From contig JAFAWA010000560.1 of NCBI GenBank assembly GCA_019242155.1, forward strand, positions 1-39,265: a DNA stretch of 39,265 nucleotides. Reading direction: 5' to 3'. A program made the translations under genes and the position numbers. The notes under the pieces are model-generated. The model was given only the letters and a program-made list of their open reading frames with translations, had not been told where the DNA came from and ran no database searches. Shown piece after piece: positions 3,707 to 24,166 of this stretch; positions within the stretch are counted from its first letter, which is position 1, and each line of letters begins with the position of its first letter. This DNA comes from Terriglobia bacterium (lineage in GTDB: Bacteria > Acidobacteriota > Terriglobia > Bryobacterales > Bryobacteraceae).

Positions 3707-3760
3707 AAGAGTCGGCCTTGCCGCGCGGCGCATCTACGCAACGAGCGCGGCGCTACTCTT
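3707..3760. terminator. imperfect hairpin between convergent genes, possible bidirectional terminator
   Basis: AAGAGT (3707-3712) pairs with ACTCTT (3755-3760), and inside it GCCGCGC (3720-3726) pairs with GCGCGGC (3745-3751) around an 18-base loop. It lies between the stop of the lactonase-like gene and the stop of the convergent ankyrin gene, whose stop codon it overlaps. There is no long T-run on either side, so intrinsic termination is plausible but unproven. Confidence 0.35.
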
Positions 3761-5327: not shown

Positions 5328-5347
5328 GACGCCCATCTCCGCGGCAT

Positions 5348-6676
5348 TTAGATCGAAATGCGTCCGGTGCTATCGCCTAGCCGCTCCTTCTCGACGCCAC
5401 ACATCTGAAGCACCGTAAGGAGCATATTCGCCGTCGAACCGGAAGCGTGCACGTGTTTGCCGCCGCGGTGCAGGCCCGACGCGCCGCCGATTACCATGTG
5501 CGGCACATCCTTGTGGCTATGAAGGTTACTGTTTCCCATGTTAGTTGCCCAAAGTATCAGTGTGTGGTCCAGCAAATTGCCGTCGCCATCCGGGGTGGAT
5601 TTCAATCTCTCCAGAAAATGCGTGAGACACTGCACGTGGTAACGGTTGATTTTCGACCAATCCTCCACTCGCTTGGGCGCTTCGCCGTGATGCGAGGCTG
5701 CATGATTCGCAGTATTGACACCCGATTCGGGATAACTGCGCATGCTTACGTCATGGGCATACATCAATGTAGAGACGCGCGTGATGTCGGCCTGGAAAGC
5801 GAGCACCTGTAGGTCCCACATCAAGTTAATGTGTTCGCTGAAAGATTCCGGTATTCCAAACGGAACCTGTGCTTCGGGCGACTCACTAGCAGATTTGGCC
5901 ACGTTTTGAAGGCGTCGCTCGATTTCGCGAACGTCTTCCAGGTAGTCATCGAGCCGGCTGCCGTCCGCCGCCGGGAGTGTACCTCTCAGGCGCGCGATCT
6001 CGCCCGTCAGACTATCGAGCAAGCTGGCCTTGGCCTGTTTTCGCGCAAGCCGCTCCGCGGGCGTACTCCCATCGCCAAAGAGCCGCTCGAAGACTAACTG
6101 CGGGTTGGCCTCGTGGGGCAGCGGCCTGGTGGGACCTGCCCAGGAAACGGAGTTAGTATACGCACAGCTATAACCCCAAGGGCACGTCGCCAAGTAACTC
6201 TGATCCTCTATGCCGAGTTGGATCGAGGGAAGAAAGTTACGCTGGCCGTACTTCTCCGCGATCATTTGATCTATGGTCGTCCCTAAGAAGATATCTTCGT
6301 TCACGGTCTTCTTGGGCGGCACACCGGCAAACGTCGCAGCACCGCGAGAATGATCGCCGCCGGTCTCTCCGGGCGGCGGCATGGACGAGGTTGCGTCCAA
6401 TCCGCTCACCACGGTTATTGAATTCCGAAATGGTTCGAGCGGTTTAAGAATAAAAGGAAATTCGGCAATAGGCCCGGTCTGATCCATCGCCCAGTAACTT
6501 GGCGCCCAGCCGTGCGGATTGAAGATACCGACAAACCGGGGAGCCGTCGCGATAGCCGCGGCTTTAGCTCTAGTCAGCAGAGCGGGAAACATCGAATCGA
6601 GAAGCGGTAAGGCCAAAGTAACACCCGCGCCCCGCAATATGCTCCGCCGCGAAACATACTTTCCAGTTACAAACAT
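5348..6676 (-). CDS. Tat-exported DUF1552 family protein
   Basis: This 442-residue protein matches the DUF1552 family, which in Planctomycetes and Acidobacteria is usually encoded beside a DUF1592-type cytochrome. The N-terminus has a twin-arginine signal, SRRSILRGAGVTLALPLLDS, so the protein is exported folded, perhaps with a cofactor. Family-like segments include FNPHGWAPSYW near the start, FLGTTIDQMIAEKYG, a central IARLRGTLPAADGSRLDDYL helix, and the C-terminal LDHTLILWATNMGNSNLHSHKDVP stretch, quoted here only as the region around residues 375-400. These resemble the alkaline-phosphatase-like fold of the DUF1501 relatives. AAGGGA five bases before ATG 6676 supports the start. It lies 11 bases after the cytochrome gene. 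No enzymatic activity is established for the family. Confidence 0.88.
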   Translation of the reverse strand: MFVTGKYVSRRSILRGAGVTLALPLLDSMFPALLTRAKAAAIATAPRFVGIFNPHGWAPSYWAMDQTGPIAEFPFILKPLEPFRNSITVVSGLDATSSMPPPGETGGDHSRGAATFAGVPPKKTVNEDIFLGTTIDQMIAEKYGQRNFLPSIQLGIEDQSYLATCPWGYSCAYTNSVSWAGPTRPLPHEANPQLVFERLFGDGSTPAERLARKQAKASLLDSLTGEIARLRGTLPAADGSRLDDYLEDVREIERRLQNVAKSASESPEAQVPFGIPESFSEHINLMWDLQVLAFQADITRVSTLMYAHDVSMRSYPESGVNTANHAASHHGEAPKRVEDWSKINRYHVQCLTHFLERLKSTPDGDGNLLDHTLILWATNMGNSNLHSHKDVPHMVIGGASGLHRGGKHVHASGSTANMLLTVLQMCGVEKERLGDSTGRISI

Positions 6677-6687
6677 GACATTCCCTT

Positions 6688-9072
6688 CTACTGAGCCGCA
6701 ACGGCAACAGGATAGTTGTGAATCCCGCCGTTATTCTGGAATACATCACTGGTGACAACTGCCTGCACGATCGAAGAAAACCGGTACTCGTGCACCGCAG
6801 CTTGCCGAACGATCGAACGCACCACCGGCATATCCTGATATTCCACACCGCGTCCTAAGGCGTAAGTGAGTAATTTCTCTGCGAATGTTTGCAAAAACTG
6901 CGGCGAATAGCGATTCAGTGCTTCACGCAGGCTAGTAACTCCGCTGAGCTTGCTTCCATCCGTAAGTTCTCCCGAGACATCCAATGGCTTACCCGACTCG
7001 GTCGTCCGCCACTTACCCACCGCATCGAAATTTTCAAGCGCGAATCCGATCGGGTCCATCATTTTGTGACAACCGGCACAGGCAGCATTCTGCCGGTGCT
7101 CCTCCATGCGTTCACGCATGGTCTGCACCTCGCGTCCCAAGCCGCCGGCGCTGCTCTTTAGAACGGGGACGTTGGGAGGAGGATCCGGAGGAATCACGCC
7201 GAGGATGTTCATCAGAATCCACTTGCCGCGTTGCACGGGCGAAGTGCGGTCGGAAATGGAAGTAGCCAATAGAACCGCACCTTTACCTAGTAGACCCCTG
7301 CGCATGTGGAACTCATCGCCTAAACTAATTTTCCGGAACTCGCTTCCGTAGACATTGGGTATGCCGTAGTGGGATGCGAGGCGCTCGTTAACAAAGGTGT
7401 AGTCGGCGTTAAGTAAGTCCAGGGCGCTTCGATCTTCACGCACGATGCTCTCAAAAAACATCTCGGCTTCGGTACGGAAAGCCTGCCGGAGGTTATCGTC
7501 GAAGTCGGGAAATAGGGTTCCGGCAGGTGTAGATCCTTGCAGTGTCCGCAACTGCAACCACTGGCCGGCGAAGTTCCTCGCGAGCTCATGGGAACGGGGG
7601 TCGGCCAGCATGCGACGGACCTGCCGATGCAACACAGCACGGTCGTGAAGCTTTCCCTGGCTTGCGAATTGCAAAAGCTGCTCATCCGGTCCGCTGCTCC
7701 ATAGAAAAAATGACAGCCGGGAAGCAAGCTCCAAGTCGGGGATCTGGTAAGAGCCACCTGCTGCGGCTTTCTCTGTCGCTGCTTCGGTGCGAAAAACAAA
7801 TTCCGGGTGCGCCAGTATAAATTGAAGCCCGCGTTCAATGCCGTTCTCGAAGTTGCCGTCAGCGCGGCCGGGTTCATAGAAGCTAACGATGCGATCTATG
7901 TCGGCATTCGTAACCGGCCTTCGAAACGCCCGGCGCGCAATCGAAGATAGAATCTTTCTAGCGCATTCAGGTTCCTCATGGGCATCAGCAGGCCGGCAAA
8001 CCAGAATCTTGTTTCGGCTGGGAGTATCTGCCGGCTCAGTCCCATTGTAGGGGCCGGAAATCGTGACGGAACTTAATTGCGGCGTGAAAGTGAATCCGTC
8101 GATCAGGTTATCGTCCAGTATGCTCCGCTGATAGTGACGATTTAGGTCAACGTTCGGCACATATGTGGTAGCGACAAATGCGAAGCCAACGGCGCGCTGA
8201 CCGGCCTTAACATGAACACGCACTTCGTTCTTGTCCCGCATCGTGGTGATGGGAACGTCCGTGCCGATGTGGAACAATCGAATCCGTTCGCCATCGATCG
8301 TGACTTCGAGCTGTTCCTGGGGGCTATCACCACCGTATAAAGCGCCAACCGTTGTGCGCACCGGATCCCAGGAGATCGAGTATTCTCCATCGGCTGGAAA
8401 GAGGTGGCGGATCAACATACCGCCGCGCGTTCCAAACGGCAAACCTTCGATGTGGGCTTCCTGCGAATAGTCCTCGCGCGCGCGGTAGATCTTGCGGGCC
8501 GGCGCCGTCTCATGCCCAAGAGCCAGGCGGCTGATTTTCGCGGCCGCAGAAACATAGCCCTCCGCCAATGCCGGAGAAACACCCAACCCGCTCGCGATGT
8601 TATCGAACCCGTAACTCGAGTCGTCGGCCGGCAAATAGGCTCCGGGGTCAATCTCTAAACCGGTCAGGTCACGAATAGTATTCGCGTACTCGGTTCGATT
8701 GACGCGATGGACCCGCGGCACAGTAGCGTGCGGTCGATTAGCCGCGGCACGGTCGAGTTCATTTTCGAGATAGGAGGCAAGCTGGGCGGCCACGGCCGGT
8801 TCCGGACGCGGGAGCCCAGCCGGCGGCATCATCCCGGCGCGCAGTTTGCGCACGACCTTTTCCCAGGCTTCAGGGTTTTCGCTCACCTTGCCGATGTCGA
8901 GTTGGTCTAGGAGCAAGCCTGCAGTTTTTAAGCGCTGGTTATGACAGGAAACACAATACCTGTCGAGAACCGCGCGTTGCGTTGATGGTTGTCCTTCGGC
9001 CGCAACAGCGCCCATCAATGCGAACGAAATGAAAGCTAAGATGCTCCTCAAGATTGCGCCGGCAGCGAACAT
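6688..9072 (-). CDS. DUF1592/DUF1588/DUF1587/DUF1585/DUF1595 multidomain cytochrome-like protein
   Basis: This exported protein of 794 residues has the full Planctomycete-type domain train. A signal peptide (about 1-26) is followed by a haem motif CVSCH at 40-44. DUF1587 (RVHRVNRTEYANTIRDLTG) comes next, then a beta-rich middle region. DUF1595 (IARRAFRRPVTNADIDRI), DUF1592 (LASRLSFFLWSSGPDEQLL), DUF1588 (RGLLGKGAVLLATSISDRTSP) and DUF1585 at the C-terminus follow. A second haem motif, CAGCH, followed by KMMDPIGFALENFD, lies near residue 690. So two c-type haems are predicted. It probably passes electrons in the envelope; the substrate is not known. It heads a minus-strand cassette with the DUF1552 and ankyrin genes, with 11-20 base gaps. 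Its start ATG 9072 has only a weak ribosome-binding site. Confidence 0.9.
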   Translation of the reverse strand: MFAAGAILRSILAFISFALMGAVAAEGQPSTQRAVLDRYCVSCHNQRLKTAGLLLDQLDIGKVSENPEAWEKVVRKLRAGMMPPAGLPRPEPAVAAQLASYLENELDRAAANRPHATVPRVHRVNRTEYANTIRDLTGLEIDPGAYLPADDSSYGFDNIASGLGVSPALAEGYVSAAAKISRLALGHETAPARKIYRAREDYSQEAHIEGLPFGTRGGMLIRHLFPADGEYSISWDPVRTTVGALYGGDSPQEQLEVTIDGERIRLFHIGTDVPITTMRDKNEVRVHVKAGQRAVGFAFVATTYVPNVDLNRHYQRSILDDNLIDGFTFTPQLSSVTISGPYNGTEPADTPSRNKILVCRPADAHEEPECARKILSSIARRAFRRPVTNADIDRIVSFYEPGRADGNFENGIERGLQFILAHPEFVFRTEAATEKAAAGGSYQIPDLELASRLSFFLWSSGPDEQLLQFASQGKLHDRAVLHRQVRRMLADPRSHELARNFAGQWLQLRTLQGSTPAGTLFPDFDDNLRQAFRTEAEMFFESIVREDRSALDLLNADYTFVNERLASHYGIPNVYGSEFRKISLGDEFHMRRGLLGKGAVLLATSISDRTSPVQRGKWILMNILGVIPPDPPPNVPVLKSSAGGLGREVQTMRERMEEHRQNAACAGCHKMMDPIGFALENFDAVGKWRTTESGKPLDVSGELTDGSKLSGVTSLREALNRYSPQFLQTFAEKLLTYALGRGVEYQDMPVVRSIVRQAAVHEYRFSSIVQAVVTSDVFQNNGGIHNYPVAVAAQ

Positions 9073-9242: not shown

Positions 9243-10022
9243 ATGCCGGCTTGTTGGTTTTCTAAAGTAACTGCGATGGCGGCTTGTGCCGCCTGCTTAG
9301 CCATACCTTCCTCTGCTCAGTGGTTAAACACTCCAAGTAAGGGAATTCCGCGACTGCCGGATGGGAAGCCAGATCTGAATGCGCCGGCGCCGAAACGACC
9401 GGATGGCAAGCCGGATATCTCCGGCCTGTGGCAACCTCCGGCCATGTATGTCGGTAACATAGCTCGCGACTTGAAACCTGGTGAAGTTCCCTTCCGGCCG
9501 TGGGCGGAGGCTCTTTATAAACATCGCCAGGAGACCCAAAGCAAGGAAGACCCGACGGGGTGGTGCGTGCCCGGCGGAGTTCCCCGGAACGACGTTGTAC
9601 CGTATCCTTTCAAGATCCTCTACACGGACGGCATGATCGTAATACTCTACGAAGCTGTCCACAGCTATCGCCAGATCTTCATGGACGGGCGGGAATTACC
9701 GAAGGATCCCAATCCAAATTGGCTCGGCTACTCGGTGGGACATTGGGACGGAGACACACTCGTCGTCGAGACCTCGGGTTTTGTGGAGAATAGTTGGCTG
9801 GATAACGGGGGCCATCCAGGCACCAACTCGATGCATGTTACCGAACGGTTCCATCGCAGGGATTTGGGGCACATGGAAATTCAGATGATCATTGATGACC
9901 CGAAAGCCTACACAAAACCCTGGTCAGTTAAGGTAGCTTATAACTTACTTCCGGACACAGATCTGCTCGAATATATCTGCTCCGAAAATAACAAGGATTT
10001 GGAGCACCTGGTGGGTAAGTAG
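9243..10022 (+). CDS. secreted protein of uncharacterised GDTLVV family (member A)
   Basis: This 259-residue protein has a signal peptide ending near SSAQW. I do not recognise a named domain. It starts with two copies of a PDGKPD motif (RLPDGKPDL, then RPDGKPDISGLW). It ends with QIFMDGREL, GHWDGDTLVVETSGF, SMHVTERFHRR, DDPKAYTKPW and ICSENNKD. The same motifs in the same order occur in the products at 18495-19241 and 32113-33111, so the three are paralogues. The conserved His of HVTER and the conserved Cys followed by (E/D)N near the end are candidate functional residues. The fold looks beta-rich. It is transcribed away from the DUF1592 cassette and converges with the amidohydrolase gene. 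Ribosome-binding site before ATG 9243 is weak. Function unknown. Confidence 0.8.
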   Translation: MPACWFSKVTAMAACAACLAIPSSAQWLNTPSKGIPRLPDGKPDLNAPAPKRPDGKPDISGLWQPPAMYVGNIARDLKPGEVPFRPWAEALYKHRQETQSKEDPTGWCVPGGVPRNDVVPYPFKILYTDGMIVILYEAVHSYRQIFMDGRELPKDPNPNWLGYSVGHWDGDTLVVETSGFVENSWLDNGGHPGTNSMHVTERFHRRDLGHMEIQMIIDDPKAYTKPWSVKVAYNLLPDTDLLEYICSENNKDLEHLVGK

Positions 10023-10054: not shown

Positions 10055-11116
10055 CTAAGAGATTTTTAATAGCTTAGCCGCCGTGCCGCCTAGGATCGCG
10101 CGCCGGTCGTCGTCGCTCAGCCCTGGTGTTTTGAGAACATGATCCACAGTGGTTGTGCTCCAGGGATAAGGATAATCCGTACCGATCATGATCTGACTGG
10201 CTCCGCACTCCGCAACCATATGCCGCAGCCCCTCCGGGGTGAAGACCATCGAATCGAAATAGATCTGCCGAAGGTACTCGGAGGGGTGTTTCTTGATGCT
10301 CTTGCAGCTTTCCGCGAAGCGCACGCAGCCGTAATCCGACCGGGCTGCGTAAGACGGCAAATAGCCTCCGCCGTGAGCCGCACAGATCTTGAGACCGGGA
10401 AAACGATCTAAGGTACCGTCAAAGATCAAATGCGAAAGAAAAATTGTGGTTTCGAGCGGGTTGCCGATCACATTAGTCAATCCGCCGTTTCCCGCCAGCC
10501 GTTTGTTGAGTTCCGGTATTCCTTGCGGATGCATGAAGACCAGACATCCTAACTCATCCGCCTTTTTCCAGAAGGGATCGAACTGCGCGGCAGATAACTC
10601 ATCTCCGTTTACGTGGCCGCCGATGGCTGCGCCGCGCAGGTTGTATTTGCGAACGCCCTCCTCGAGTTGCTCAGCCGCCATTTCCGGAAATTGCAAAGCA
10701 ACCGAGGCAAACGCCACGAACCTGTCAGGGTAGGCGGCGCAGATTTCCGCCAGCTTTTGATTTTGAATCTGAATCACTTTTCGGGCGACGTCCTGCTCTA
10801 GGGCGTACCACGTCGGGTTGATACTTAAAGCCTGCATATCGGTGCCCCACTCGTCCATGGTGGCGAAGCGGGCAGGACCCATCACAGTCGCGTCGTTTGG
10901 GGCGGTCCGCTGGCCCATCAACGCCGTCGCTTCCGGTATCACGACGTGTGCATGTATATCGATCGTTCGCACCGGACGCCCGCCGACCGTCACCTTGCGC
11001 CGGTTCTTACTACTGCCGGACTGAGCGTACACCGGGGAGCGACTCAGGCAACAGCCGCCTATGATCACTCCCGCGGATCGAGCTACATCCTTAAAAAACT
11101 GCCGGCGATGAAGCAT
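10055..11116 (-). CDS. Tat-exported amidohydrolase, ACMSD-like (amidohydrolase_2)
   Basis: This metal-dependent hydrolase or decarboxylase of the amidohydrolase_2 family has 353 residues. HAH at 55-57 (TIDIHAHVV) provides the first metal ligands. MHPQG, SHLIFDG and AAHGGGYLP supply later His residues, and the IGTDYPYPW motif near the end carries the usual Asp. This layout fits relatives of aminocarboxymuconate-semialdehyde decarboxylase and resorcylate-type decarboxylases, which act on aromatic or ring-cleavage acids. Unlike those cytosolic enzymes, this one begins with HRRQFFKDVARSAGVIIGG, a Tat-type signal, and so is likely exported. AGGAG seven bases before ATG 11116 supports the start. 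It follows the TonB receptor by 89 bases on the same strand, which suggests it works on what the receptor system handles. Substrate not determined. Confidence 0.85.
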   Translation of the reverse strand: MLHRRQFFKDVARSAGVIIGGCCLSRSPVYAQSGSSKNRRKVTVGGRPVRTIDIHAHVVIPEATALMGQRTAPNDATVMGPARFATMDEWGTDMQALSINPTWYALEQDVARKVIQIQNQKLAEICAAYPDRFVAFASVALQFPEMAAEQLEEGVRKYNLRGAAIGGHVNGDELSAAQFDPFWKKADELGCLVFMHPQGIPELNKRLAGNGGLTNVIGNPLETTIFLSHLIFDGTLDRFPGLKICAAHGGGYLPSYAARSDYGCVRFAESCKSIKKHPSEYLRQIYFDSMVFTPEGLRHMVAECGASQIMIGTDYPYPWSTTTVDHVLKTPGLSDDDRRAILGGTAAKLLKIS

Positions 11117-11205
11117 AGGCGTTCTCCTGGTTGAGGAAGTGTATCAAGCGCGCACCGCATAGGCAAACGGATGATGCCGGGCTGAATTAGGTTCTTGGCG
11201 CCGCG

Positions 11206-14200
11206 TCAAAATAGGAGCTTCAATCCTAATTGCATAGCGCGCGCTCCGCCGGAACCGAGGACCGGATTGGAGCCGGCAACATCGGGCGTAATGCAGCCGC
11301 AGCCCATGCCGAAGCCCGCGGAAGGATCGTTGTTGAGGTACCCGTTCGGACCACCTTCGGGATTGGCGAAGTTTGGATGATTCAAGATATTGAAAAATTC
11401 GGCCCGGAACTGCGCATGGAGTGACTCCCGAATTTTCCACGATTTCGATACCGAGAGATCCCAATTCCGGAAGCCCGAGTCTCGAAAGGTGCCACGGCCC
11501 AAGTTGCCGTAACTCCCAATGGCCGGAGGAATCAAGGCTGAATTGCCCCGGAAATAACAGCCGACATTGTAAAGACTATTCAGAGCACCCGTGCCCATTG
11601 CGGTCGCTGCCGAAATGCAGGCCTGCGGAATGGCCGGTGCAGTGCAGCCGCCTATTGCCGAAGGGCCCGAACCGCTGGCACAAGGGATCGGGTTCTGTCT
11701 CGACTGGAAGTCTGAAGGACTACCCACAAAGTTCCACTGTTCGCCGTGACCAGCGGTAGCGGAAACTACGTTAGTACCGCTGAAGTCATCTGTAAAGTCC
11801 TGCGGATACCAGGGTTGGCCGGTCTGCAGGGTCACAATTGAGTTGATGGACCATCCCTCGAGTATCTGGCCGGGCGACTTCTTGCCCGGAATAGCATAAG
11901 TCAGCGATAGCGTGAAGCGATGGCGAACATCCCAGTCACTACTTCCATAGAGTTGCCGCGGGTTGTTACTGTTTAGAGGAACGCCCTGACCGCAGCCCCA
12001 GTTGTCACAAGCGTAATCCAAAGCATGAGACCATGTGTACCCTCCGGTGAACGACAGACCGCCCGATACGCGCTGCGTCGCGGCGATCTGAAGGCCGTTG
12101 TAGTTGGACGAAGCGAGGTTTGCCAGATTATAGATGTTACTCAAGTATGGGAATTTTGCATTTCTGGTGAATGGGCGAGCCGCTTGCACCAGCCCAGGGT
12201 CTGAGTCACTCGGATCGCAGGCGAACGGAGAACTGGCCGCCGCTAGATGACTGTTACAGTAAGCGATCTCTGCCGGATCATAGCCCGATCCCAGAGGCGC
12301 TTGGTTGAGGTCCACCAACTGCACTAACTTGGTGCCGTGATTGCCCACGTAGGCCACATCCACCGAGAAGTTGTTTGTCACCGCGCGCTGCAGGCTCACT
12401 GTCCAGGTGCTCACATAAGGTGTGCGCAGATTCCGATCCACTCCCACCGTGGCACAGGGCGACGGGTCCGATCCAAGGCCATCACCGCACTGTAGGGATA
12501 ACGTGCTTAGCGAGTAGATCGTCTGCCCACCTACTGACGAACCGTTCCAGTTCAAACTCGAACCCGGCACAGTTATTACGCCAAGGTTGATGCTGCCGGA
12601 TCCGGGCGTTGTTTTCCCGTTCACTACCAGGCTTGCTCCAGTCGGCACGGTGCGGATGCCTAGAAGATTGCCGATGCCCATGAACACGTCGTAGCTGAGC
12701 TGTTCATAAATGAGGCCGGCACCGGCTCGCAGGACTGTCCTGCCATTGCCTCCGACATCCCAGGCGAATCCGAGTCGGGGCGAGAAGTTGTTGTGGTCAC
12801 CGTTAAACGGAGAGCTGATCTGTTTCCCCACCTGTACCAGACCTTGGTTAGCATCGAAGTTGCCGATCAGATCGTGCGCCTCTTTAAATACAGTATTCAA
12901 CTCGTAACGAAGTCCGAGATTTATAGTTACTCGTGGACTGATGCGCCAGTCGTCTTGAATGAAGGCTGCGTATCCCCAGCTAGTCAACGCTCTGGCCGCG
13001 TCGCCAATCAGGATGGTTCCGCGCAAGGGCGAACCGGAGAAAAAGTCTTGCAAGGAACGGAAGCGAATCGGCCCCTTCGCATTTGCGGTTATGTCGCCGT
13101 TAAACGAGTTCTGCATCGCCTCGCCGCCGAACTTAATGGCGTGATTACCGAATTGCACCGAAGTATGGTTTACAATTTGCAGCACACCATCCGGGCCTAC
13201 GATCTTTGGCCAACTTGCGCCTAACTGGAAGGTTCCGGGAGCAAAGCTCGAGAAAGTAATTGCAGGCATCCCGTAGTAGAGCGGGTTAGTCACTCCTGTG
13301 TTCAACCCGTAGGTTGTTGGGTTCACAGACGAGTCTCCAGATAGAAACGTCTGGTAATAGTGAGAGTAGCCTGCCTTGAATAGATTGACCCAACGTGAGT
13401 TTGGTATCCACGTCCAGTTGCCCGAACCAACCTGCGCCCTCATGTACTGATTGGTCTCCCAAGCAGGCCTTACCTCACCGGCCGCATCGTTAAAGACCCC
13501 ATTGCCCTGGCTGATGAAATAGACTCCGTTAATCACGTGCTTGGCGCTGATGTGGTAATCGAGCTTTGTGAGGCCGGTATCGATCTGGTTTGTGTTACTC
13601 AAACCGGGAGAAAACAGAGCGGGGTCCCCGGCAGCCGTTCCGGAATTATTTGGAAACAGGTTGGGGAACGACGATGAAGGAGAGCAATCCGGGTTCAACC
13701 CGGCCAACCTCAAGCTGAGGGCGCTTCGGGAACCGGCGGGCACTGCGTTGCAAGCGTCAATCAGGCTCAGACTTGGGTTAGTTGCGGTCAGACCACAGCC
13801 CGCCGCCCCACCGGCGCATGCCACTGGGGCATTTGCGACAAAGGGACTGCCCACGGTGTAACGCTGGTCTTCAAAGTTCAAAAAATAAAAAAGCTTGTCT
13901 CTGCGAATCGGACCGCCTACTGTGCCGCCGAACTGTTCCAGACCCAGCGGCGGGTTGCAAGCTGCGGGATTGATCCTACAGACCGAATCTGTAGGAGGCG
14001 GGGTAAAGTAATCTTTGGCATCCCACGAATCTGTCCGGCCATAAGCGTAAGCGGTGCCATGAATCGCATTAGTTCCGGATTTGATTCCGACATTGACTAT
14101 ACTGCCGGGCTTCCACCCGAATTCCGCTCGTGGGTTTTGCTCGGTCCGGAACTCCTGAATGGCATCAATGGACAGAATGGTACCAGCGTCGCCCGCCGCT

Positions 14201-14862
14201 GCCGCCGCGTTATATACACTTTGACCGGTCCAAGGCTCGTTATTAACCAAGCCGTCCACCATGTACACGTTGTCATGCGCGCGAAGCCCGTTCGTGCTCT
14301 GCGTCCAACCTCCGCCTCCGGCATAAATGGTGACACCGGGGCGGAGAGTCAGTAGGTTTTGGTAGTTGCGCCCATTCAAAGGCAAGTCATTAATGATCTG
14401 ATTGCTGATCGTGCCCCCGAGTTCCGCACTGGTAGTATCCAACAAGGGAGGTGAATCCATCACACGCACGGTTTCACTTACCTCGCCTGGCTGCAGCGTA
14501 AAATCGAGCCGCGCGTCCTGGCCAACTTCCAGTTGAATGTTGGTCTGCTCGAAGATCTTAAAGCCCTTAAACTCTGCGCGTACGGTTTTTCTGCCGGGAC
14601 TTATTCCCGGGGCCGCGAATTGACCCGCTTCATCGGTAACAACACTGCGCTCGAGCCCCCGGTCAACGTCTATGATTGTTACTACAGCCCCGACCACGAC
14701 CGCGCCGGTAGAGTCCCTTACTGTGCCTAACAGACGGCCCAAGTTAGCTTGTGAGAAAGCTGGAAGAGCGGCAAGCAGAACTAATAAGCATGCTTTGGCT
14801 GATCCAAAGCCTAGATAATCGATACGGCCCGAGGTGCGCGTGCCGAAGGTCACGAAACTCAT
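11206..14862 (-). CDS. TonB-dependent receptor with carboxypeptidase-regulatory-like N-terminal domain
   Basis: A complete outer-membrane receptor of 1218 residues, the Oar-like type abundant in Acidobacteria. Order: signal peptide (to about 38, ending AFSQA), a carboxypeptidase-regulatory-like beta-sandwich (about 42-125, LLGTVRDSTGAVVVGAVV and DEAGQFAAPGISPG), and the plug (about 130-270, NDLPLNGRNYQNLLTL, MVDGLVNNEPW, IDAIQEFRTEQ, GSIVNVGIKSGTNAIHG). A long beta-barrel follows, with FIQDDWRISPRVTINLGLRY, ending in LGLKLLF with the terminal Phe. A GAAGGGGG sequence just before ATG 14862 is a strong ribosome-binding site. It follows the NHL propeller gene by 135 bases and may also have its own promoter. 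It shares plug motifs with the broken receptor at 1-2783. The transported substrate is unknown. Confidence 0.92.
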   Translation of the reverse strand: MSFVTFGTRTSGRIDYLGFGSAKACLLVLLAALPAFSQANLGRLLGTVRDSTGAVVVGAVVTIIDVDRGLERSVVTDEAGQFAAPGISPGRKTVRAEFKGFKIFEQTNIQLEVGQDARLDFTLQPGEVSETVRVMDSPPLLDTTSAELGGTISNQIINDLPLNGRNYQNLLTLRPGVTIYAGGGGWTQSTNGLRAHDNVYMVDGLVNNEPWTGQSVYNAAAAAGDAGTILSIDAIQEFRTEQNPRAEFGWKPGSIVNVGIKSGTNAIHGTAYAYGRTDSWDAKDYFTPPPTDSVCRINPAACNPPLGLEQFGGTVGGPIRRDKLFYFLNFEDQRYTVGSPFVANAPVACAGGAAGCGLTATNPSLSLIDACNAVPAGSRSALSLRLAGLNPDCSPSSSFPNLFPNNSGTAAGDPALFSPGLSNTNQIDTGLTKLDYHISAKHVINGVYFISQGNGVFNDAAGEVRPAWETNQYMRAQVGSGNWTWIPNSRWVNLFKAGYSHYYQTFLSGDSSVNPTTYGLNTGVTNPLYYGMPAITFSSFAPGTFQLGASWPKIVGPDGVLQIVNHTSVQFGNHAIKFGGEAMQNSFNGDITANAKGPIRFRSLQDFFSGSPLRGTILIGDAARALTSWGYAAFIQDDWRISPRVTINLGLRYELNTVFKEAHDLIGNFDANQGLVQVGKQISSPFNGDHNNFSPRLGFAWDVGGNGRTVLRAGAGLIYEQLSYDVFMGIGNLLGIRTVPTGASLVVNGKTTPGSGSINLGVITVPGSSLNWNGSSVGGQTIYSLSTLSLQCGDGLGSDPSPCATVGVDRNLRTPYVSTWTVSLQRAVTNNFSVDVAYVGNHGTKLVQLVDLNQAPLGSGYDPAEIAYCNSHLAAASSPFACDPSDSDPGLVQAARPFTRNAKFPYLSNIYNLANLASSNYNGLQIAATQRVSGGLSFTGGYTWSHALDYACDNWGCGQGVPLNSNNPRQLYGSSDWDVRHRFTLSLTYAIPGKKSPGQILEGWSINSIVTLQTGQPWYPQDFTDDFSGTNVVSATAGHGEQWNFVGSPSDFQSRQNPIPCASGSGPSAIGGCTAPAIPQACISAATAMGTGALNSLYNVGCYFRGNSALIPPAIGSYGNLGRGTFRDSGFRNWDLSVSKSWKIRESLHAQFRAEFFNILNHPNFANPEGGPNGYLNNDPSAGFGMGCGCITPDVAGSNPVLGSGGARAMQLGLKLLF

Positions 14863-14921
14863 GGGGACCCCCTTCTCGCGAAATGCGGCTATATGCCCGT
14901 TATAAAACTAGTGCTGGGTAT

Positions 14922-14950
14922 TAGCTATCATTGCCGATCAAGATTGTCAA
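14922..14950 (-). promoter_or_regulatory. possible promoter for TonB receptor
   Basis: On the minus strand a perfect TTGACA (14950-14945) is followed after 17 bases by TGA-TAGCTA (hexamer 14927-14922), an extended -10 with a weak hexamer. It lies about 60 bases before the receptor start. The -35 is convincing, the -10 is not. Confidence 0.35.
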
Positions 14951-14997
14951 GACCAAAATACAGAGTCTTTTCTGGGAGTAAGTAAACTTTGGTGAAC

Positions 14998-16287
14998 TTA
15001 CTTCCAAGCAGAATAAACCGGCTTGCCGACCAGGAACGCTGAGTTCACTCCCGCCCTGGGCCGGAACTTCTGCACCCGGCCACTATCTACTTCGGCGACA
15101 TAGAAGTTGCCCTCCTGGTCAACACTGAAGCCGTGTACTCCCCAGAAACCTCCCGGAAAGTCGCCCCAAGTTCCCCAGGAATAGAGAAAATGTCCGTCCA
15201 GATCGTACTTGAGCATCTTGGAAGTGCCGCGATCAAAGGCCCAAAAAGACCGGTCTGCACCGATAGTGAACAGATGAATATCCGACGGTTCCGGGCCAAA
15301 GCCCCACTCGTAAAGGTATTTTCCGTTCTCATCGAATACCTGCACGCGGTGATTTGCGCGGTCATTGACAAAGACTCGCCTGGTCTGCGGATCGACTGCG
15401 ATTCCATGTACGTTGTTGAAGTATCCGGGGCGTTTCTCGTTCGGAGGATTGCCCTTCATTCCCCAATCCAGCAGAAATTTGCCGTTCTTATCAAATTTCG
15501 CTACTCGCGTGCCGTTATAGCCGTCTGCGACGAACATGGTGCTGTCGGGAAGCCAGGCAAGGAATGTCGGCCGGTTGAAGTGCGTCCCGTCTGCTCCGGC
15601 GACGTCCGGGGTGCCGATGGTCTGCAGAAGATCCTTTCCATCGTGGGAGAACTTGTAAATGGCCTGCATGTGATCGTCAACTACCCAGACATGCCTCTCC
15701 GCATCGTAGGGATTGATTGCGATAAAATGCGGCCGTTTGAAAATCTTGTCCCACTGAGTCCATTGCTCGATAATGTTTCCGCCGGCATCCACCACGGTCA
15801 GACAGTGTTCCCATTTCGCATCGACGCCGACCGTACCCTTCCACAGCTTTGGCCCATCTTTGGGATCCTGGCCCGAGGCGCCGCCGCCCGGTAGCGCAGC
15901 AACCGTCGCGTCGCGAAATGGGAGCCGGCCTATGGGGAACTGTACACTAGGCCCAAATTCCGGGAGTAACTTAGTCTCGGGGCGGCGTATGTTTGGTAAC
16001 TCGCCTCGGAAGAGCAGGAACACGCGTTTGGGGCTTTCGGCATACACGCTTTGCCCGGCTCCCCAGGTCCACTTATTGTTTCCCGGAAGGGAGCTGATAT
16101 TTTTTGGCCAATCCTTGACCACTTCGTAAGGGCCGAAAGTATCCTGGCCTCCAACTTGTCCCGGAATCGTGGCGAAGCCCGAGCCGGGTTTCTCCACTCC
16201 TCGAACCACTGAGACTTTGTTGCCGATTACAAAGCCGATTACCAATACGAGCGCGAAGAGCGCTAGGCGTGCTACCAGGTTGCGCAT
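14998..16287 (-). CDS. secreted NHL-repeat six-bladed beta-propeller protein
   Basis: A 429-residue exported protein with an N-terminal hydrophobic segment (about 7-24). It has repeated propeller blades of NHL type: HVWVVDDHMQAIYKFSHDG, MFVADGYNGTRVAKFDKNG, VFVNDRANHRVQVFDENG and NFYVAEVDSGRVQKFRP. Such propellers bind ligands or proteins, and related ones form the lyase half of peptidyl-amidating enzymes. I see no basis for calling this one catalytic. GAGGAGG seven bases before ATG 16287 is an excellent ribosome-binding site. It is the fifth gene of the run that starts at 19624, 128 bases after the reaction-centre-type cytochrome. That gap is larger than others in the run but shows no clear promoter or terminator. 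A scaffold or binding role beside the cytochromes is inferred from position only. Confidence 0.85.
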   Translation of the reverse strand: MRNLVARLALFALVLVIGFVIGNKVSVVRGVEKPGSGFATIPGQVGGQDTFGPYEVVKDWPKNISSLPGNNKWTWGAGQSVYAESPKRVFLLFRGELPNIRRPETKLLPEFGPSVQFPIGRLPFRDATVAALPGGGASGQDPKDGPKLWKGTVGVDAKWEHCLTVVDAGGNIIEQWTQWDKIFKRPHFIAINPYDAERHVWVVDDHMQAIYKFSHDGKDLLQTIGTPDVAGADGTHFNRPTFLAWLPDSTMFVADGYNGTRVAKFDKNGKFLLDWGMKGNPPNEKRPGYFNNVHGIAVDPQTRRVFVNDRANHRVQVFDENGKYLYEWGFGPEPSDIHLFTIGADRSFWAFDRGTSKMLKYDLDGHFLYSWGTWGDFPGGFWGVHGFSVDQEGNFYVAEVDSGRVQKFRPRAGVNSAFLVGKPVYSAWK

Positions 16288-16415
16288 TCAATGCCTCCTC
16301 GGAATTGCCGCGGTCTGCGAGAGCTGCCGGTTCATAGCGGCGGCTCGTTAATGTTCGGGTACGATATCACCACTGCGCGCCCGAGGCAAGCACACTTCGG
16401 TGGTACCGGTGGCAG

Positions 16416-17543
16416 TTATTGTTTGGAGCCGGCCGGAGGGATGCGCCTGGCAAACTTCGCGGCATCTATGGGCGCATTCGGTTGGATCTCGCTCAGTTCT
16501 GTAGTGGATCGGCCGTCGAGCCAAGTAACTGTCCACTTAAAAGGCATTTTTACTCCGGCGACATCCCGGTAATCCGAGTAATCAATCTGTGTAGGATTTA
16601 AGCCTACCGCGGAGTCGGCGTACCGCACTAGCCTTACTAACAACCCGGACTTACTGTCGAAATAGAAATTGATGGGATAGCGGCCGTCACTCGTCGCTTG
16701 AACCACTTGAACTTCGCGGCCATCAACGCGTGTGGAATAACCCGCACGCCACTGCTTCAGCGCCTGCTTGATCCGGGAAGGGAAGGCCAATTCTGCATCC
16801 AACCGGGCCCCCTCCAGATCGCCTCCGGTAAGTTCTATCAGCGGCATGGGGCTATCCGTCGCGGGAGCCGAGGACCAGGCCGCGCGGCCATCGTAAGTGG
16901 TCGTGGCATCTCCGTTCAGTGTGTGCACGATTATCGTGCGTTGGCCGGGAGCCTTGGCAAATATCTCCAGCGGCTGTTTGTCAACATCCGAGAAACCCTG
17001 ATACCCACCCTTGGCCGCGAAGCTTGTCAGACTCGCTAGCTTCTGTGGTCCTCCGAGCGCGTCCAGATACTTATCGAGAATCTGCTCCGCGGTAAGCCCT
17101 TTTTCGCGGGGTTCTACAAACTCGTCGGGCTCTTCTGTTTTTGGAGGTCCATATAAGTCAGCGAGGCTTGGTGTCACTATAGGGCGTTCGCCGCCACGGT
17201 GGCAGGAGTAACAGGTCATAACCCGCCGGCCGCCGAAGTAAGTCTTGTTGATGGCTGAGACCATCACCAGCATTTTGCGCGCTGTCTGCTTATGCTCGTT
17301 ATCATCGGCGTAGCGTTCCCAACTTCCTCCGCTTTCGGCCACGTGGCAATATGTGCAGTTTTCGCCGAGCGAAGCGGAAAAGAATCCCATGGTGGTCATA
17401 AACTCATCCACCGGAATACCTTTCAGGATTTGAATATTCTTGAACGCTTTCTCGGCGGTAAGATTCGTGGGTCGGGTTTGGCTATAGAGCAGTGCGCCGG
17501 TTACTACGAGCCCGATTGTGCAGCAGATAGTAACCCGGATCAC
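16416..17543 (-). CDS. two-haem c-type cytochrome, reaction-centre cytochrome subunit-like, with extra C-terminal domain
   Basis: This exported cytochrome has 375 residues. The N-terminal hydrophobic segment (about 3-21) is followed by a domain like the photosynthetic reaction-centre cytochrome c subunit. FFSASLGENCTYCH gives the first haem site (C63-H67) and VMTCYSCHRG the second (C111-H115); the photosynthetic protein has four, so this is a half-size version. Nothing else suggests photosynthesis; such proteins are common in non-phototrophic Acidobacteria. Residues from about 150 on are beta-rich and contain TTYDGRAAWSS and VKMPFKWTVTWLDG, resembling outer-membrane lipoprotein carriers of the LolA fold. 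The GTG start overlaps the stop of the upstream cytochrome gene (GTGA at 17543-17540), so translation is coupled and the two probably exchange electrons. Confidence 0.85.
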   Translation of the reverse strand: MIRVTICCTIGLVVTGALLYSQTRPTNLTAEKAFKNIQILKGIPVDEFMTTMGFFSASLGENCTYCHVAESGGSWERYADDNEHKQTARKMLVMVSAINKTYFGGRRVMTCYSCHRGGERPIVTPSLADLYGPPKTEEPDEFVEPREKGLTAEQILDKYLDALGGPQKLASLTSFAAKGGYQGFSDVDKQPLEIFAKAPGQRTIIVHTLNGDATTTYDGRAAWSSAPATDSPMPLIELTGGDLEGARLDAELAFPSRIKQALKQWRAGYSTRVDGREVQVVQATSDGRYPINFYFDSKSGLLVRLVRYADSAVGLNPTQIDYSDYRDVAGVKMPFKWTVTWLDGRSTTELSEIQPNAPIDAAKFARRIPPAGSKQ

Positions 17544-18484
17544 GGAGCTACCGATGCCGCATAAGCGGCGATGGAGATCATGTCGTCTTCATTGAGACCG
17601 GCCACCACCTTCTTCATGAGTGCCGCGGACGTGCCGGTGTACTCATTCCCCTTGAACCCATAAAGCTGCCGAACGATATAAATGGGATGCAGGCCGGCGA
17701 TCCGGGGAACATCGCCGAGACCTTTTAGATCGTCGCCGTGGCAGATCGTGCAGTTTATAGTCTTTCCGGCGCCGCCTGTCGTGACTAGCCGTTTCCCCTT
17801 TTCGAGGCTCCCGGGAGGTACGTATGCAACGAATCCCGAATGCGGGTCGCGGCTGGTGGCACGGGATGGATCTTGCGGGAGTTCAATAATTCTATCGCCG
17901 AGTGGCTCCGTTCCGCCATCCGGCAACGGTAGGCGCATTCGCCCCTTCGTGCTCACATAACTCTTCGGAACAGTTTGGCTTTCCATCACCCTCACCCATG
18001 CGGCCGGCTTGAGTGCGGCAAACCATTCGGCTGCTCTGCGCACATCCTCTTCCGATGTAACCTTCGCAATGGTGTTCATGCGCGCCGCATCGATGCGCGT
18101 ACCATTTTTAAAATCCATCATCTGGCGCACAAGATATTCCACCGGAAGGCCGGCCAAATCAGCAGACTCCGGATGTCCTTGTCCCGTCATCAGGTGGCAG
18201 GAGCCGCAAGCAAGGCCCGTCGATCCGGGTGCTCCCGCAACCACCTTGGGCACCTGCCCGTGTTCTTCCGGAACCCAATCCGGCGGGTTGGTCAAATCGT
18301 CAATCTGTTTCTCCGTGTAAGCCTTCTTGCTGCCGGGTATGTGGATCTCACCATTTCTTTCGGCTACCGCGGGCTGTTCTTTGTCCGGGGCAAGAAAGGC
18401 CCACGATGGCCGGCCGCCTGTCTGTCCCTGAAAGCCAACCAATGATACGAGCCCCAGCGCCGCCACCTGCAAGAGTGTTCGCAT
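17540..18484 (-). CDS. two-haem cytochrome c
   Basis: A periplasmic cytochrome of 314 residues with a signal peptide (about 1-20). It has two class I-like haem domains. The first has CGSCH at 93-97 followed by PVEYLVRQMMDFKNG and a Met in ARMNTIAKVTSEED. The second has CTICH at 245-249 followed by HPIYIVRQLYGFKGNEYTG and a Met in ALMKKVVAGLNEDDM. The matching layout of the two halves points to internal duplication, as in the c4/c553 group. The Met residues are likely sixth haem ligands. About 80 residues of linker separate the domains. It lies 10 bases after the GDTLVV family gene and overlaps the next cytochrome by four bases. Role: electron transfer for whatever oxidation this run carries out. 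Confidence 0.88.
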   Translation of the reverse strand: MRTLLQVAALGLVSLVGFQGQTGGRPSWAFLAPDKEQPAVAERNGEIHIPGSKKAYTEKQIDDLTNPPDWVPEEHGQVPKVVAGAPGSTGLACGSCHLMTGQGHPESADLAGLPVEYLVRQMMDFKNGTRIDAARMNTIAKVTSEEDVRRAAEWFAALKPAAWVRVMESQTVPKSYVSTKGRMRLPLPDGGTEPLGDRIIELPQDPSRATSRDPHSGFVAYVPPGSLEKGKRLVTTGGAGKTINCTICHGDDLKGLGDVPRIAGLHPIYIVRQLYGFKGNEYTGTSAALMKKVVAGLNEDDMISIAAYAASVAP

Positions 18485-18494
18485 AGCTCCCCGA

Positions 18495-19241
18495 CTACTT
18501 CTTGGCCGCTTCGTTCTTGAGGAAATCGTCGAAATTCACATTGTCTTCGCACACCATCTCGGTAATGTTCCACTTCGGATGGGCACGAAACTGAAGCTGT
18601 GCTCCCCAGGGTTTGGTGTAAGCTTTGGGATCCTCGATCGTAATCTCAATCTGGAGCGTAGTGTCATTAGCGCGGCGCATACGTTCAGTAACGTGTAGCG
18701 CATCGCTGTGCGGATGACCGGCGCGGTCCACCCAAGTTTTGTCATTGAACCCAATCGTATCCACTACCAGTGTGTCGCCTTCCCATTTACCGATAGAGTC
18801 GCCCAACCAGGTTGCGCCTAGCGCTGTGTTGTGCGGCCTGCCGTCCGTGAAGATCTGCCGCACGAAGTGATTGAATTCGAAAAACTCCAGCACTCGACCC
18901 GGTGTCTGGATGATCTCCATCGGAAATGGCTGCAAATAGATGCGAGGCACTCCCGGGGGAAAACAGCCGGCCGAGTTCAGCTTGGTAGGATTGACCGGAT
19001 CGTTAGAATCTTCGAAGGAGCGCGGTCCGAACGAAGGCCGGGTGGCCTTAAACCGCTCCTCAGCCCAGGGAGTCATGGGCGGATCACCGGCCATAAATCC
19101 ATAGCTCAGGTAGCGAGTAGTTGGGGAAGACTCCAGGTTCCAAACGCCCGAGAGATTCGGTGTTTGCTGGCCGTGCACCAGAACAGGCAAACCAGCAACT
19201 ATTCCCAATAGCAGAACCGATTGCGCACGCTGAGTTCTCAT
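18495..19241 (-). CDS. secreted protein of uncharacterised GDTLVV family (member B)
   Basis: A 248-residue exported protein with a signal peptide ending near VHGQQ. It carries the core signature of the family: NLSGVWNLE at the mature N-terminus, QIFTDGRPH, GKWEGDTLVVDTIGF, ALHVTERMRR, EDPKAYTKPW and MVCEDNVNFD. Compared with the protein at 9243-10022 it lacks the doubled PDGKPD motif and has a lysine-rich tail. AGGTGA seven bases before ATG 19241, inside the end of the DUF6152 gene, is the ribosome-binding site. It is separated by 2 bases from the gene upstream and 10 from the gene downstream, so it is firmly part of the cytochrome operon. That is the strongest clue that the family acts in an envelope redox or degradation process. 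No catalytic activity can be assigned. Confidence 0.82.
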   Translation of the reverse strand: MRTQRAQSVLLLGIVAGLPVLVHGQQTPNLSGVWNLESSPTTRYLSYGFMAGDPPMTPWAEERFKATRPSFGPRSFEDSNDPVNPTKLNSAGCFPPGVPRIYLQPFPMEIIQTPGRVLEFFEFNHFVRQIFTDGRPHNTALGATWLGDSIGKWEGDTLVVDTIGFNDKTWVDRAGHPHSDALHVTERMRRANDTTLQIEITIEDPKAYTKPWGAQLQFRAHPKWNITEMVCEDNVNFDDFLKNEAAKK

Positions 19242-19243
19242 TC

Positions 19244-19624
19244 TTAATCACCTGCGGCGGTCTTCAACTCTTCCCCGTTGACGACCGTCTTCGTAATCCA
19301 AAGCGAAGTCGATCCGGATTTCGCACGCCAGCCGGTGAGAGTAATCTTGTCTCCGGGCTTAAGCGACTCGGCAGTCCAACCCGCTCTGAGTAGGTGATTG
19401 GGACTGGTTAGCTCGCCCTGCCATTTCTGCATCTCTCCCTTATCATCTTTCGCGTCGAGATACACAATGCAATGCGGGTTGAGGAATTTGAAATCGGATA
19501 CAGTTCCATTCACGGTAACTTGCTGATGCAGGTCGTAGCCGGCTTGCCCGTGATGTGCCAGACCGGGAGTCCCGGTCGAGAGAAAAGCGGCCGCTACGGC
19601 CCATAGAGTGAACTGGTTACTCAT
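19244..19624 (-). CDS. secreted DUF6152 family protein
   Basis: A small exported protein of 126 residues matching what is known as DUF6152. The signal peptide ends at GLAHHG, leaving a His-His-Gly mature N-terminus. The rest is a beta-rich domain with VTVNGTVSDFKFLNPHC, WQGELTSPNHLLRAGW and LKPGDKITLTGWRAKSG. The pattern resembles an OB-type barrel, and the two N-terminal His residues with the later NPHC and NHLL might bind a metal, but that is inference. It is the first gene of the run; GGGGGA four bases before ATG 19624 is a strong ribosome-binding site, and a good promoter lies about 70 bases upstream. Function unknown. The family often sits near other exported degradative genes in Acidobacteria. 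Confidence 0.82.
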   Translation of the reverse strand: MSNQFTLWAVAAAFLSTGTPGLAHHGQAGYDLHQQVTVNGTVSDFKFLNPHCIVYLDAKDDKGEMQKWQGELTSPNHLLRAGWTAESLKPGDKITLTGWRAKSGSTSLWITKTVVNGEELKTAAGD

Positions 19625-23245: not shown

Positions 23246-24166
23246 ATGCAGAAACCTGGTTACGACCCCGGGCTCACCCAGAAGTTCACCGGTTCGGTAC
23301 GGCGCATTATCAATCCCGACGGCACTTTCAACGTCCGCCGGCGCGGCACCACGCTCCGCGATCTTCATCCTTACCTCCTTCTCATCAACATGAACTGGCT
23401 GAGCTTTCTGTTAACGGTATTTGCCGCGTATGTAGTCCTCAACACGATTTTTGCGTGGGGCTACTTTTGGCTGCCGCCCTCAGAACTTATAGGCGCCCAG
23501 GCCCCCGATTCGTTCCACCGCTTTCTTAACGACTTCTTCTTCAGTGCCCATACACTAACCACGGTCGGGTACGGCAGCATTGCACCCGCCGGCATTATGG
23601 CGAATTTTCTTGCAGCTTTTGAAGCGTTGATCGGAGTGCTTGGGTTCGCGGTTGCCACCGGCCTGTTATTCGGAAGAGTTTCCCGGCCGTCCGCCCGTAT
23701 TGGGTTTAGTGAACGCATGCTTCTCACGGGCTATCAAGACGGTACCAGCCTCCAATTCCGCGTGGTCAATCGGCGCGCCAATTCGATCGTGGAGCTCGAG
23801 GCCCGTCTGCTCCTGATGACCGTAAAGCCGACCGATGGCGGAGAGCTCAAGCGTTCGTACGAATCACTGTCGCTAGAGCGTGACCGTGTGCTGTTTCTGC
23901 CCCTCACCTGGACGGTAGTGCACGTCATCGACAATAACAGTCCGCTTTGGGGCAAAACGGAGGAGGACTTGGAACGAATGCAGACCGAATTGCTCATTCT
24001 TCTGAAAGGGCACGATGATACGTTCAATCAAACCGTTTTTGCCCGGCGTTCCTACCGGCATAACGAAATTGTTTGGGGCGCTCGTTTCGCACCTGCCTTC
24101 TTCGTAGCCGAGGATGGCGACCTGGTGCTCGAACTGCCCAAAGTAGGCGAACTGGCGGCCGACTGA
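23246..24166 (+). CDS. inward-rectifier-type potassium channel (KirBac family)
   Basis: A 306-residue channel subunit expected to form tetramers in the inner membrane. The N-terminal slide region (about 18-45) is followed by TM1 (about 52-75), a pore helix and the selectivity filter TVGYG at 106-110. TM2 (about 119-143) and a C-terminal beta-rich cytoplasmic domain with FRVVNRRANSIVELEARLLL and LPLTWTVVHVIDNNSPLWG follow; these segments are characteristic of Kir cytoplasmic domains. Length and order match KirBac proteins. ATG 23246 has GGA five bases upstream and a TGC-TAGCAT sequence (23228-23236) that may serve as an extended -10, which would make the leader very short. It stands alone on its strand. 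Confidence 0.9.
   Translation: MQKPGYDPGLTQKFTGSVRRIINPDGTFNVRRRGTTLRDLHPYLLLINMNWLSFLLTVFAAYVVLNTIFAWGYFWLPPSELIGAQAPDSFHRFLNDFFFSAHTLTTVGYGSIAPAGIMANFLAAFEALIGVLGFAVATGLLFGRVSRPSARIGFSERMLLTGYQDGTSLQFRVVNRRANSIVELEARLLLMTVKPTDGGELKRSYESLSLERDRVLFLPLTWTVVHVIDNNSPLWGKTEEDLERMQTELLILLKGHDDTFNQTVFARRSYRHNEIVWGARFAPAFFVAEDGDLVLELPKVGELAAD

Follow-up and report, generated by a model that had tools for sequence, protein, structure and literature searches.

A secreted DUF6152 and GDTLVV gene pair at the head of a cytochrome-bearing seven-gene run in a Terriglobia genome

Does a run of seven minus-strand open reading frames (ORFs) in the genome of a Terriglobia bacterium (Acidobacteriota, Bryobacteraceae) act as one unit, and if not, what is it made of? 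The run lies at 10055-19624 of a 39,265-nucleotide stretch (assembly GCA_019242155.1, contig JAFAWA010000560.1), termed the window here. A first-pass annotation of the sequence had described seven minus-strand genes of named families with four predicted haems and a tight four-gene head, all of which were found to be present (the haems as four CxxCH motifs), and had read them as a unit for the uptake and oxidation or hydrolysis of an organic, perhaps aromatic, substrate. The head of the run is better, if tentatively and at slightly under even chances, explained as a copy of a secreted module of a DUF6152 protein and a protein bearing a GDTLVV motif (the GDTLVV protein), which would combine a metal site with a ligand barrel and at this locus form part of a haem-linked redox unit. 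The four genes of the head are separated by 2, 10 and -4 bases (ORF coordinates) and are as follows, with export signals of the window proteins judged by eye, models built with AlphaFold2 (AF2) and scored by predicted local distance difference test (pLDDT), and E denoting expect values:

19244-19624, minus strand: DUF6152 protein of 126 residues, predicted secreted oligonucleotide/oligosaccharide-binding (OB) fold (PF19649, E 9.1e-28; AF2 pLDDT 89.2; OB-fold matches)
19550-19555, minus strand: codons of His24-His25, which should form the N-terminus once the signal peptide is cut off (115 of 117 unique domains)
19472-19480, minus strand: codons of Asn49-Pro50-His51, with the third conserved histidine (His51 in 115 of 117)
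18495-19241, minus strand: GDTLVV protein of 248 residues, predicted secreted calycin-type barrel (AF2 pLDDT 75.9; CRBP1 and FABP matches)
18762-18779, minus strand: GDTLVV motif, residues 155-160
17540-18484, minus strand: dihaem c-type cytochrome with cytochrome c4-like halves (Pfam Cytochrom_C; CxxCH at residues 93 and 245; cytochrome c4 relatives)
16416-17543, minus strand: dihaem CytoC_RC-like (non-photosynthetic) cytochrome (PF02276, E 1.3e-12; NF033196; CxxCH at residues 63 and 111)

Both families were found to be multiplied in the source genome, a draft of 5.77 Mb in 560 contigs with an estimated contamination of 4.99%. A search with the window protein returned 106 GDTLVV matches and a profile search at least 116, with family identities to the window copy of 29-51%, and 45 DUF6152 matches were obtained; together, these two secreted families without known function number approximately 160 matches in a single soil genome. 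Each of the five genomes of the genus carried 40-49 DUF6152 matches and from 99 to at least 126 GDTLVV matches (profile counts of at least 116 in the source genome and at least 126, 99, 126 and 126 in the others, at most 126 candidates being scored per genome and a match not equating to an intact gene). Eight other genera of the family, represented by one genome each, gave 0-3 GDTLVV and 0-1 DUF6152 matches, and DUF6152 was absent from 14 control genomes. Expansion is not confined to the genus: the scoring maximum was also reached by G028 and G386, which represent genus g25 of the same family, and by several other families of the phylum. In a survey of 396 genomes of the phylum, for which 6 or up to 12 candidates were scored per genome (presence may therefore be missed and counts are not copy numbers), both families were detected in 49 genomes, DUF6152 only in 4, GDTLVV only in 1 (G178, 75% complete) and neither in 342. 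Among 21 near relatives, the same 11 carried both families and the same 10 neither. Public GDTLVV loci, taken as the best 80 of at least 570 matches, also derived, by record title, from Gammaproteobacteria, Caulobacteraceae, Hyphomicrobiales, Rhodospirillaceae and Methylobacillus glycogenes. Plasmid records of Novosphingobium, Sphingobium and Croceibacterium matched both families and those of Paracoccus, Azospirillum, Sinorhizobium and Cupriavidus DUF6152 only, the E limits differing between the two queries.

The two families also lie close together. Within the source genome, a GDTLVV match was located no more than 1 kb from 31 of the 45 DUF6152 matches (on the same strand in 29 cases), against an expectation of 4.0% of the genome. 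The reverse linkage was weaker, with DUF6152 found within 1 kb of 32 and within 3 kb of 44 of the 106 GDTLVV matches. The 80 public loci, which were chosen by GDTLVV so that linkage there is conditioned on it, contained 63 DUF6152 domains, of which 52 were situated within 500 bases of GDTLVV on the same strand, 5 were fused to it in frame, 5 were at 501-3000 bases and 1 was farther away on the other strand. From 38 regions of the source genome (36 chosen by DUF6152 and 2 by CytoC_RC), 43 DUF6152 domains were recovered: 28 within 500 bases and 3 at 501-3000 bases on the same strand, 3 on the opposite strand within 3 kb, 1 fused and 8 without GDTLVV in the stretch. Six natural fusions were identified, each with DUF6152 first, and an AHH start was kept in 4; one natural fusion is located at L090:7455-8675. 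On a plasmid of Sphingobium sp. TomTYG65 (L167, 5835-8363), GDTLVV-like and DUF6152 genes were seen to alternate in tandem (GDTLVV-like, DUF6152, GDTLVV-like, DUF6152), the GDTLVV-like genes being recognised by eye and by a plasmid search match. The array has two DUF6644 genes and one for a TonB receptor next to it and lies between monooxygenase and TauD-type genes.

An alignment of 35 DUF6152 sequences (33 of 63 ORFs, chosen by length, together with the window sequence and one relative) revealed His24, His25, Asn49-Pro50-His51 and Glu71 to be invariant. In a wider set of 117 domains, which are unique sequences rather than independent lineages and were collected with a profile built from, and favouring, sequences with two starting histidines, 115 had all three of histidines 24, 25 and 51, 2 had none of them, and no intermediate was seen. 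The two domains lacking them are both fusions (L196 and L124). Furthermore, the residue preceding His24 was alanine in 109 of the 117, and Glu71 was retained in 109. The first pair of histidines was positioned 20-29 residues from the first in-frame start codon in 25 of 42 ORFs of the source genome, after a signal-peptide-like stretch, and because of this placement mature DUF6152 should begin with His-His. The sequence pattern is that of N-terminal-histidine proteins, with a histidine placed first by signal-peptide removal and further conserved ligand residues, and by this likeness DUF6152 is a candidate N-terminal-histidine metalloprotein. An OB fold is predicted from the AF2 model, which matched PriB (Z 9.6, root-mean-square deviation (rmsd) 2.5, 81 residues aligned) and, as its best Foldseek match, the OB region of LysRS (E 2.0e-4). 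DUF6152 differs from PriB/SSB and the LysRS anticodon domain in being secreted, in offering no reason for nucleic-acid binding and in having its His-His start outside the match. No lytic polysaccharide monooxygenase (LPMO) sequence family was matched by the protein at 19244-19624, for which Pfam gave DUF6152 alone and NCBIfam nothing, and a PDB profile search gave three hits, all at chance level. CusF is a copper chaperone with an OB fold; OB-fold copper chaperones of this kind were not among the fold matches listed for DUF6152, which excludes nothing.

For the GDTLVV protein, no curated family was found in Pfam, NCBIfam or PHROGs at E 0.01 and no PDB sequence relative at E 1, and no described calycin family was matched by sequence (Pfam, NCBIfam, PDB). 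The fold matches to its AF2 model were uniformly FABP, CRBP and NanoLuc barrels in the top rows, with modest similarity (Foldseek E 3.0e-4 to FABP/retinol-binding/NanoLuc barrels; Z 9.5, rmsd 3.2, 120 residues aligned and 12% identity to CRBP1 (VIA)). A calycin-type (FABP-type) barrel with a probable disulphide is predicted. The likeness to calycins extends over 105-126 residues at Z of approximately 9 and includes a Gly-x-Trp near the barrel start (Gly32 in 204 of 204 and Trp34 in 189 of 204 sequences). In contrast to those proteins, to which identity is approximately 12%, the GDTLVV protein matches no Pfam calycin family, is bacterial and secreted, exists in more than 100 copies and possesses an extra N-terminal segment together with a conserved cysteine pair and charged set. 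Across 212 unique near-full domains, Gly32, Cys93, Arg128, Gly147, Trp153, Glu186, Asp204 and Cys231 were conserved at 95-100%, with Glu186 and Asp204 at 99%. Both cysteines were present in 199 of the 200 domains with letters at both sites, which suits a disulphide-pinned secreted barrel. (A separate alignment of source-genome sequences, A1, contained 17 of 30 fetched copies, partial or extended frames having been dropped.) The first-pass annotation had proposed the GDTLVV protein as a possible unrecognised oxidising enzyme, a proposal that the predicted calycin-type fold and lack of a cofactor family do not support; a known redox enzyme was likewise rejected, given no family and a calycin-type model. 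If either protein carries out redox chemistry, DUF6152 is the better candidate because of its exposed His-His start and third histidine.

Taken together, these comparisons of sequence show co-occurrence, frequent adjacency, fusion and expansion of the two families, to His-His at the expected cut and to a third histidine lost only jointly with the pair. The data force the conclusion that DUF6152 and GDTLVV belong to one process outside the cytoplasm.

Beyond the head, the spacing widens to 128, 135 and 89 bases, and the remaining genes of the run, together with a neighbour just downstream, are as follows:

14998-16287, minus strand: NHL-repeat propeller, a looser neighbour (relatives: TRIM/thin NHL and PAM lyase propellers)
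11206-14862, minus strand: OMP_b-brl_4 outer-membrane barrel, TonB-receptor-like, a looser neighbour (PF25183, E 1.8e-163)
10055-11116, minus strand: ACMSD-like amidohydrolase with an export-type start, a looser neighbour (Amidohydro_2, PF04909; ACMSD E 1.3e-40)
9243-10022, plus strand: second GDTLVV-family gene, just downstream of the run (38% identical to the first; included in alignment A1)

Conservation of this arrangement across Acidobacteriota, whose absence the first-pass annotation had named as refuting its reading, was largely lacking for the run as a whole. A homologue of the dihaem cytochrome was found in 17 of 101 genomes searched, the source genome included, and 26 cytochrome regions (one from the source genome), corresponding to 27 of 28 matches outside the window with a fragment in G003:C416 left out, were annotated by tblastn with the window proteins, by which diverged copies may be missed. 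The order DUF6152-GDTLVV-cytochrome was kept in 2 of the 26, both from the same genus as the window (G003 and G004). In G004 the CytoC_RC gene is located before DUF6152, and the four proteins share 59, 73, 78 and 75% identity with those of the window. In G003 the triad (65, 75 and 73% identity) is followed by an opposite-strand ORF, the NHL gene (81%), the start of the barrel (68%) and the contig end. In a third region (L073) the pair was identified in divergent orientation approximately 0.7 kb from the cytochrome, and four more (L081, L082, L083 and L085) contain a GDTLVV-family match at another place in the stretch, with none found by tblastn in the remainder. Among the 80 public GDTLVV loci, genes of the run were encountered singly, namely NHL in 2, amidohydrolase in 1, CytoC_RC-type in 4 and dihaem cytochrome in 1; NHL (51% identity) is beside the pair in L129, and amidohydrolase, DUF6152, GDTLVV and CytoC_RC are found together in L130. 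On this synteny, the idea of the whole run as a conserved operon was rejected. The families of the run are found together only loosely, with their order shuffled between loci; the arrangement of all seven genes is a local one, and no pathway is readable from the run as a unit.

Looser associations did emerge among the neighbours. In the source genome, 3 of 6 CytoC_RC matches were located within 2 kb of DUF6152 (2.9% of the genome; p 0.0005) and 2 of 6 within 1 kb, and PF25183 barrels were located within 3 kb of GDTLVV in 13 of 65 cases (9.2%; p 0.006) and within 1 kb in 6 of 65 (4.0%; p 0.04), these p values assuming uniform placement and the radii having been picked after seeing the data. The 65 barrels were scored from 147 candidates by merging 71 rows, six genes having been listed in two pieces. 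Outer-membrane barrels (tblastn matches to the window barrel) were detected in 16 and a PQQ-dehydrogenase cluster in 8 of the 80 public loci, one representative of the latter having been scanned. For Amidohydro_2, 1 of 9 source-genome matches was near GDTLVV, this being the window's own (2 of 11 rows fell below the cut-off and were dropped). DUF6644, a small predicted membrane protein, follows DUF6152 after 3 bases in Paracoccus and is itself followed there by a TRAP transporter, with no GDTLVV in that DUF6152-DUF6644-TRAP stretch. It is also beside DUF6152 in Sphingobium, 2.6 kb from it in Novosphingobium, and beside it in 3 of the 16 source-genome matches, on two contigs. A fixed enzyme partner of the pair was sought by clustering neighbours in the 80 public loci and 38 source-genome regions, and only recurrent minorities were obtained. 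Separately, six DUF6644 matches were seen in a row on one strand of contig C444 (15730-18717) of the source genome.

N-terminal-histidine metalloproteins and calycins are known kinds. In a 2025 paper, the idea that N-terminal histidines bind metals was developed and tested in DUF4198 and DUF6702, among others; these two read as nickel or metal carriers whose enzyme activity is weak or absent (PMC12537917), and DUF6152 is not named in the main text. DUF6152 resembles these proteins, as well as LPMO and the CopC histidine brace, in its histidine exposed by signal-peptide removal, further conserved histidine or histidines, secretion and small size as a beta protein. The metal site of DUF6702 was modelled there with His1, His28 and His32, while that of DUF6152 would use His1, His2 and His28. 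Differences from that group include a predicted OB fold rather than a beta-sandwich, two starting histidines, histidine conservation of 115/117 against the 79% and 65% reported, a dedicated partner family and copies that number in the dozens in a genome. A predicted OB-fold scaffold would be added to a group described there on beta-sandwich folds, should DUF6152 be one of these metalloproteins. An open-access literature search returned no relevant paper on DUF6152, DUF6644, GDTLVV, PF19649 or PF20349, some hits being letter coincidences in heat-shock-factor and similar papers. Nor did the searched literature contain the predicted combination of these two kinds in a secreted pair that co-occurs and is heavily multiplied.

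In the mechanism proposed for the module, DUF6152 would use its new N-terminus to bind a transition metal, perhaps copper, the GDTLVV barrel would hold a small, probably hydrophobic, molecule differing between copies, and several barrels may share a single DUF6152. Sequence logic and precedent make DUF6152 a candidate metal-binding protein. At the window copy, the four-gene head would be a periplasmic redox unit whose four haems (two CxxCH motifs in each cytochrome) supply the metal site with electrons or take them from it. Because of these haems and the number of diverged barrels, we lean for this copy, not strongly, towards redox chemistry on a barrel-held molecule over metal handling. Several observations weigh against the module as proposed: for 74 of the 106 GDTLVV matches no DUF6152 lies within 1 kb, many barrels standing alone; 10 of the 45 DUF6152 matches have no GDTLVV within 3 kb; DUF6152 exists without GDTLVV in 4 of 396 genomes and on Paracoccus and Azospirillum plasmids; the dihaem cytochrome adjoins the pair only in its own genus and one public locus; the barrel matches are modest (Foldseek template modelling score 0.33-0.39 on the query); the DUF6152 model is less confident at its start, where His-His is situated (mean pLDDT 70 for residues 21-30), and the OB match starts after it; and the published N-terminal-histidine carriers, in the main text of their paper, favour metal handling (PMC12537917). 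A sharper version, in which the pair forms a two-part exported copper oxygenase or peroxygenase, with an OB-fold copper site made by the N-terminal His-His and third histidine, a swappable calycin barrel choosing the substrate, about 100 specificities per genome in some Acidobacteriota and a scattered presence in Pseudomonadota, and with two dihaem cytochromes giving electrons here, is unlikely, and slightly more so because most GDTLVV copies are not beside DUF6152.

The main rival, which we regard as possible and clearly less probable than the module, is metal acquisition or buffering, in which DUF6152 would capture a metal and hand it on, with DUF6644 or outer-membrane barrels as transport partners and GDTLVV as a chelate carrier or accessory. 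The Paracoccus arrangement without GDTLVV, DUF6644 beside DUF6152 in Sphingobium and on two contigs of the source genome, the slight enrichment of barrels near GDTLVV and the behaviour of DUF4198 and DUF6702 as metal carriers, as given in that main text (PMC12537917), are in its favour. However, 45 DUF6152 and more than 100 GDTLVV matches are a large number for metal uptake, the source genome has DUF6152 near only 3 of its 16 DUF6644 matches, no metal-transporter family recurs among the clustered neighbours, and four haems would be left without a role. The catabolic unit of the first-pass annotation, in which all seven genes would serve uptake and oxidation of an organic substrate, has become improbable: close spacing of four genes, the presence of the NHL gene and the barrel alongside the G003 triad and the combinations in L129 and L130 agree with it, while the order in 2 of 26 regions and none outside the genus, the gaps of 89-135 bases past the fourth gene and the scarcity of the amidohydrolase (found in 1 of the 80 public loci and, among 9 copies in the source genome, near GDTLVV in 1) do not. 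What survives of it is the looser CytoC_RC and barrel association, the synteny of the run being largely local. An aromatic substrate is suggested by the ACMSD-like relative and by nothing else found, in a family otherwise not near GDTLVV copies in the source genome. Least probable of all is an unspecific or structural expansion, in which abundant secreted proteins without a specific metal or ligand were duplicated and grouped incidentally; neighbours do differ widely between copies and most GDTLVV copies are apart from DUF6152, but the almost exceptionless co-occurrence across genomes, the fusions, the loss of three histidines only as a set and near-invariant charged residues in barrels only 29-51% identical to the window copy are at odds with it. 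If DUF6152 is an N-terminal-histidine metalloprotein, the tie of DUF6152 to a ligand-type barrel would provide a testable handle on the extracellular activity of many Acidobacteriota.

The other proteins of the run were characterized further. No known dehydrogenase domain was found by a Pfam scan of the window proteins, in agreement with the first-pass annotation. The CytoC_RC protein (16416-17543) scored 74.5 bits against a cut-off of 70 for NF033196, the non-photosynthetic CytoC_RC-like cytochromes, from which it differs by a C-terminal domain that is weakly DUF6544-like and below cut-off. The four best solved relatives of the amidohydrolase are ACMSD (E approximately 1.3e-40), and it is for this reason nearer to decarboxylases than to the hydrolases with which it had been grouped; ACMSD-type amidohydrolases are its closest sequence relatives, from which the window protein differs by its export-type N-terminus. 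The barrel also carries a CarboxypepD_reg domain, and its TonB-receptor barrel model scored just under the cut-off. Among the solved relatives of the NHL propeller is that of the lyase half of peptidylglycine alpha-amidating monooxygenase (E 5e-20), an enzyme whose other half is a copper monooxygenase. Promoter- and terminator-like sites were at chance level in the window scan (6 against 6.4 expected and 15 against 12.0 expected), one 10-of-12 site in this chance-level scan being situated at 19722-19693, before the DUF6152 gene.

Elsewhere in the window, a third GDTLVV match was identified at 32113-33111 on the minus strand, where the N-terminus of the protein is a CarboxypepD_reg domain, a combination unlike the other aligned copies. 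At 1-2783 on the plus strand, two overlapping ORFs together make up an OMP_b-brl_4 barrel and match consecutive profile parts (1-377 and 379-838); the frame is broken either in the gene itself or through the assembly. A DUF1552 gene is beside a gene that combines DUF1587/1592/1588/1585/1595 with a cytochrome-like part at 5348-9072 on the minus strand, and relatives of both genes were found in 2 of the 80 public GDTLVV loci (L141 and L147). The window furthermore encodes an ankyrin-repeat protein of 527 residues (3753-5336, minus strand) and a protein with an inward-rectifier potassium channel C-terminal domain (23246-24166, plus strand).

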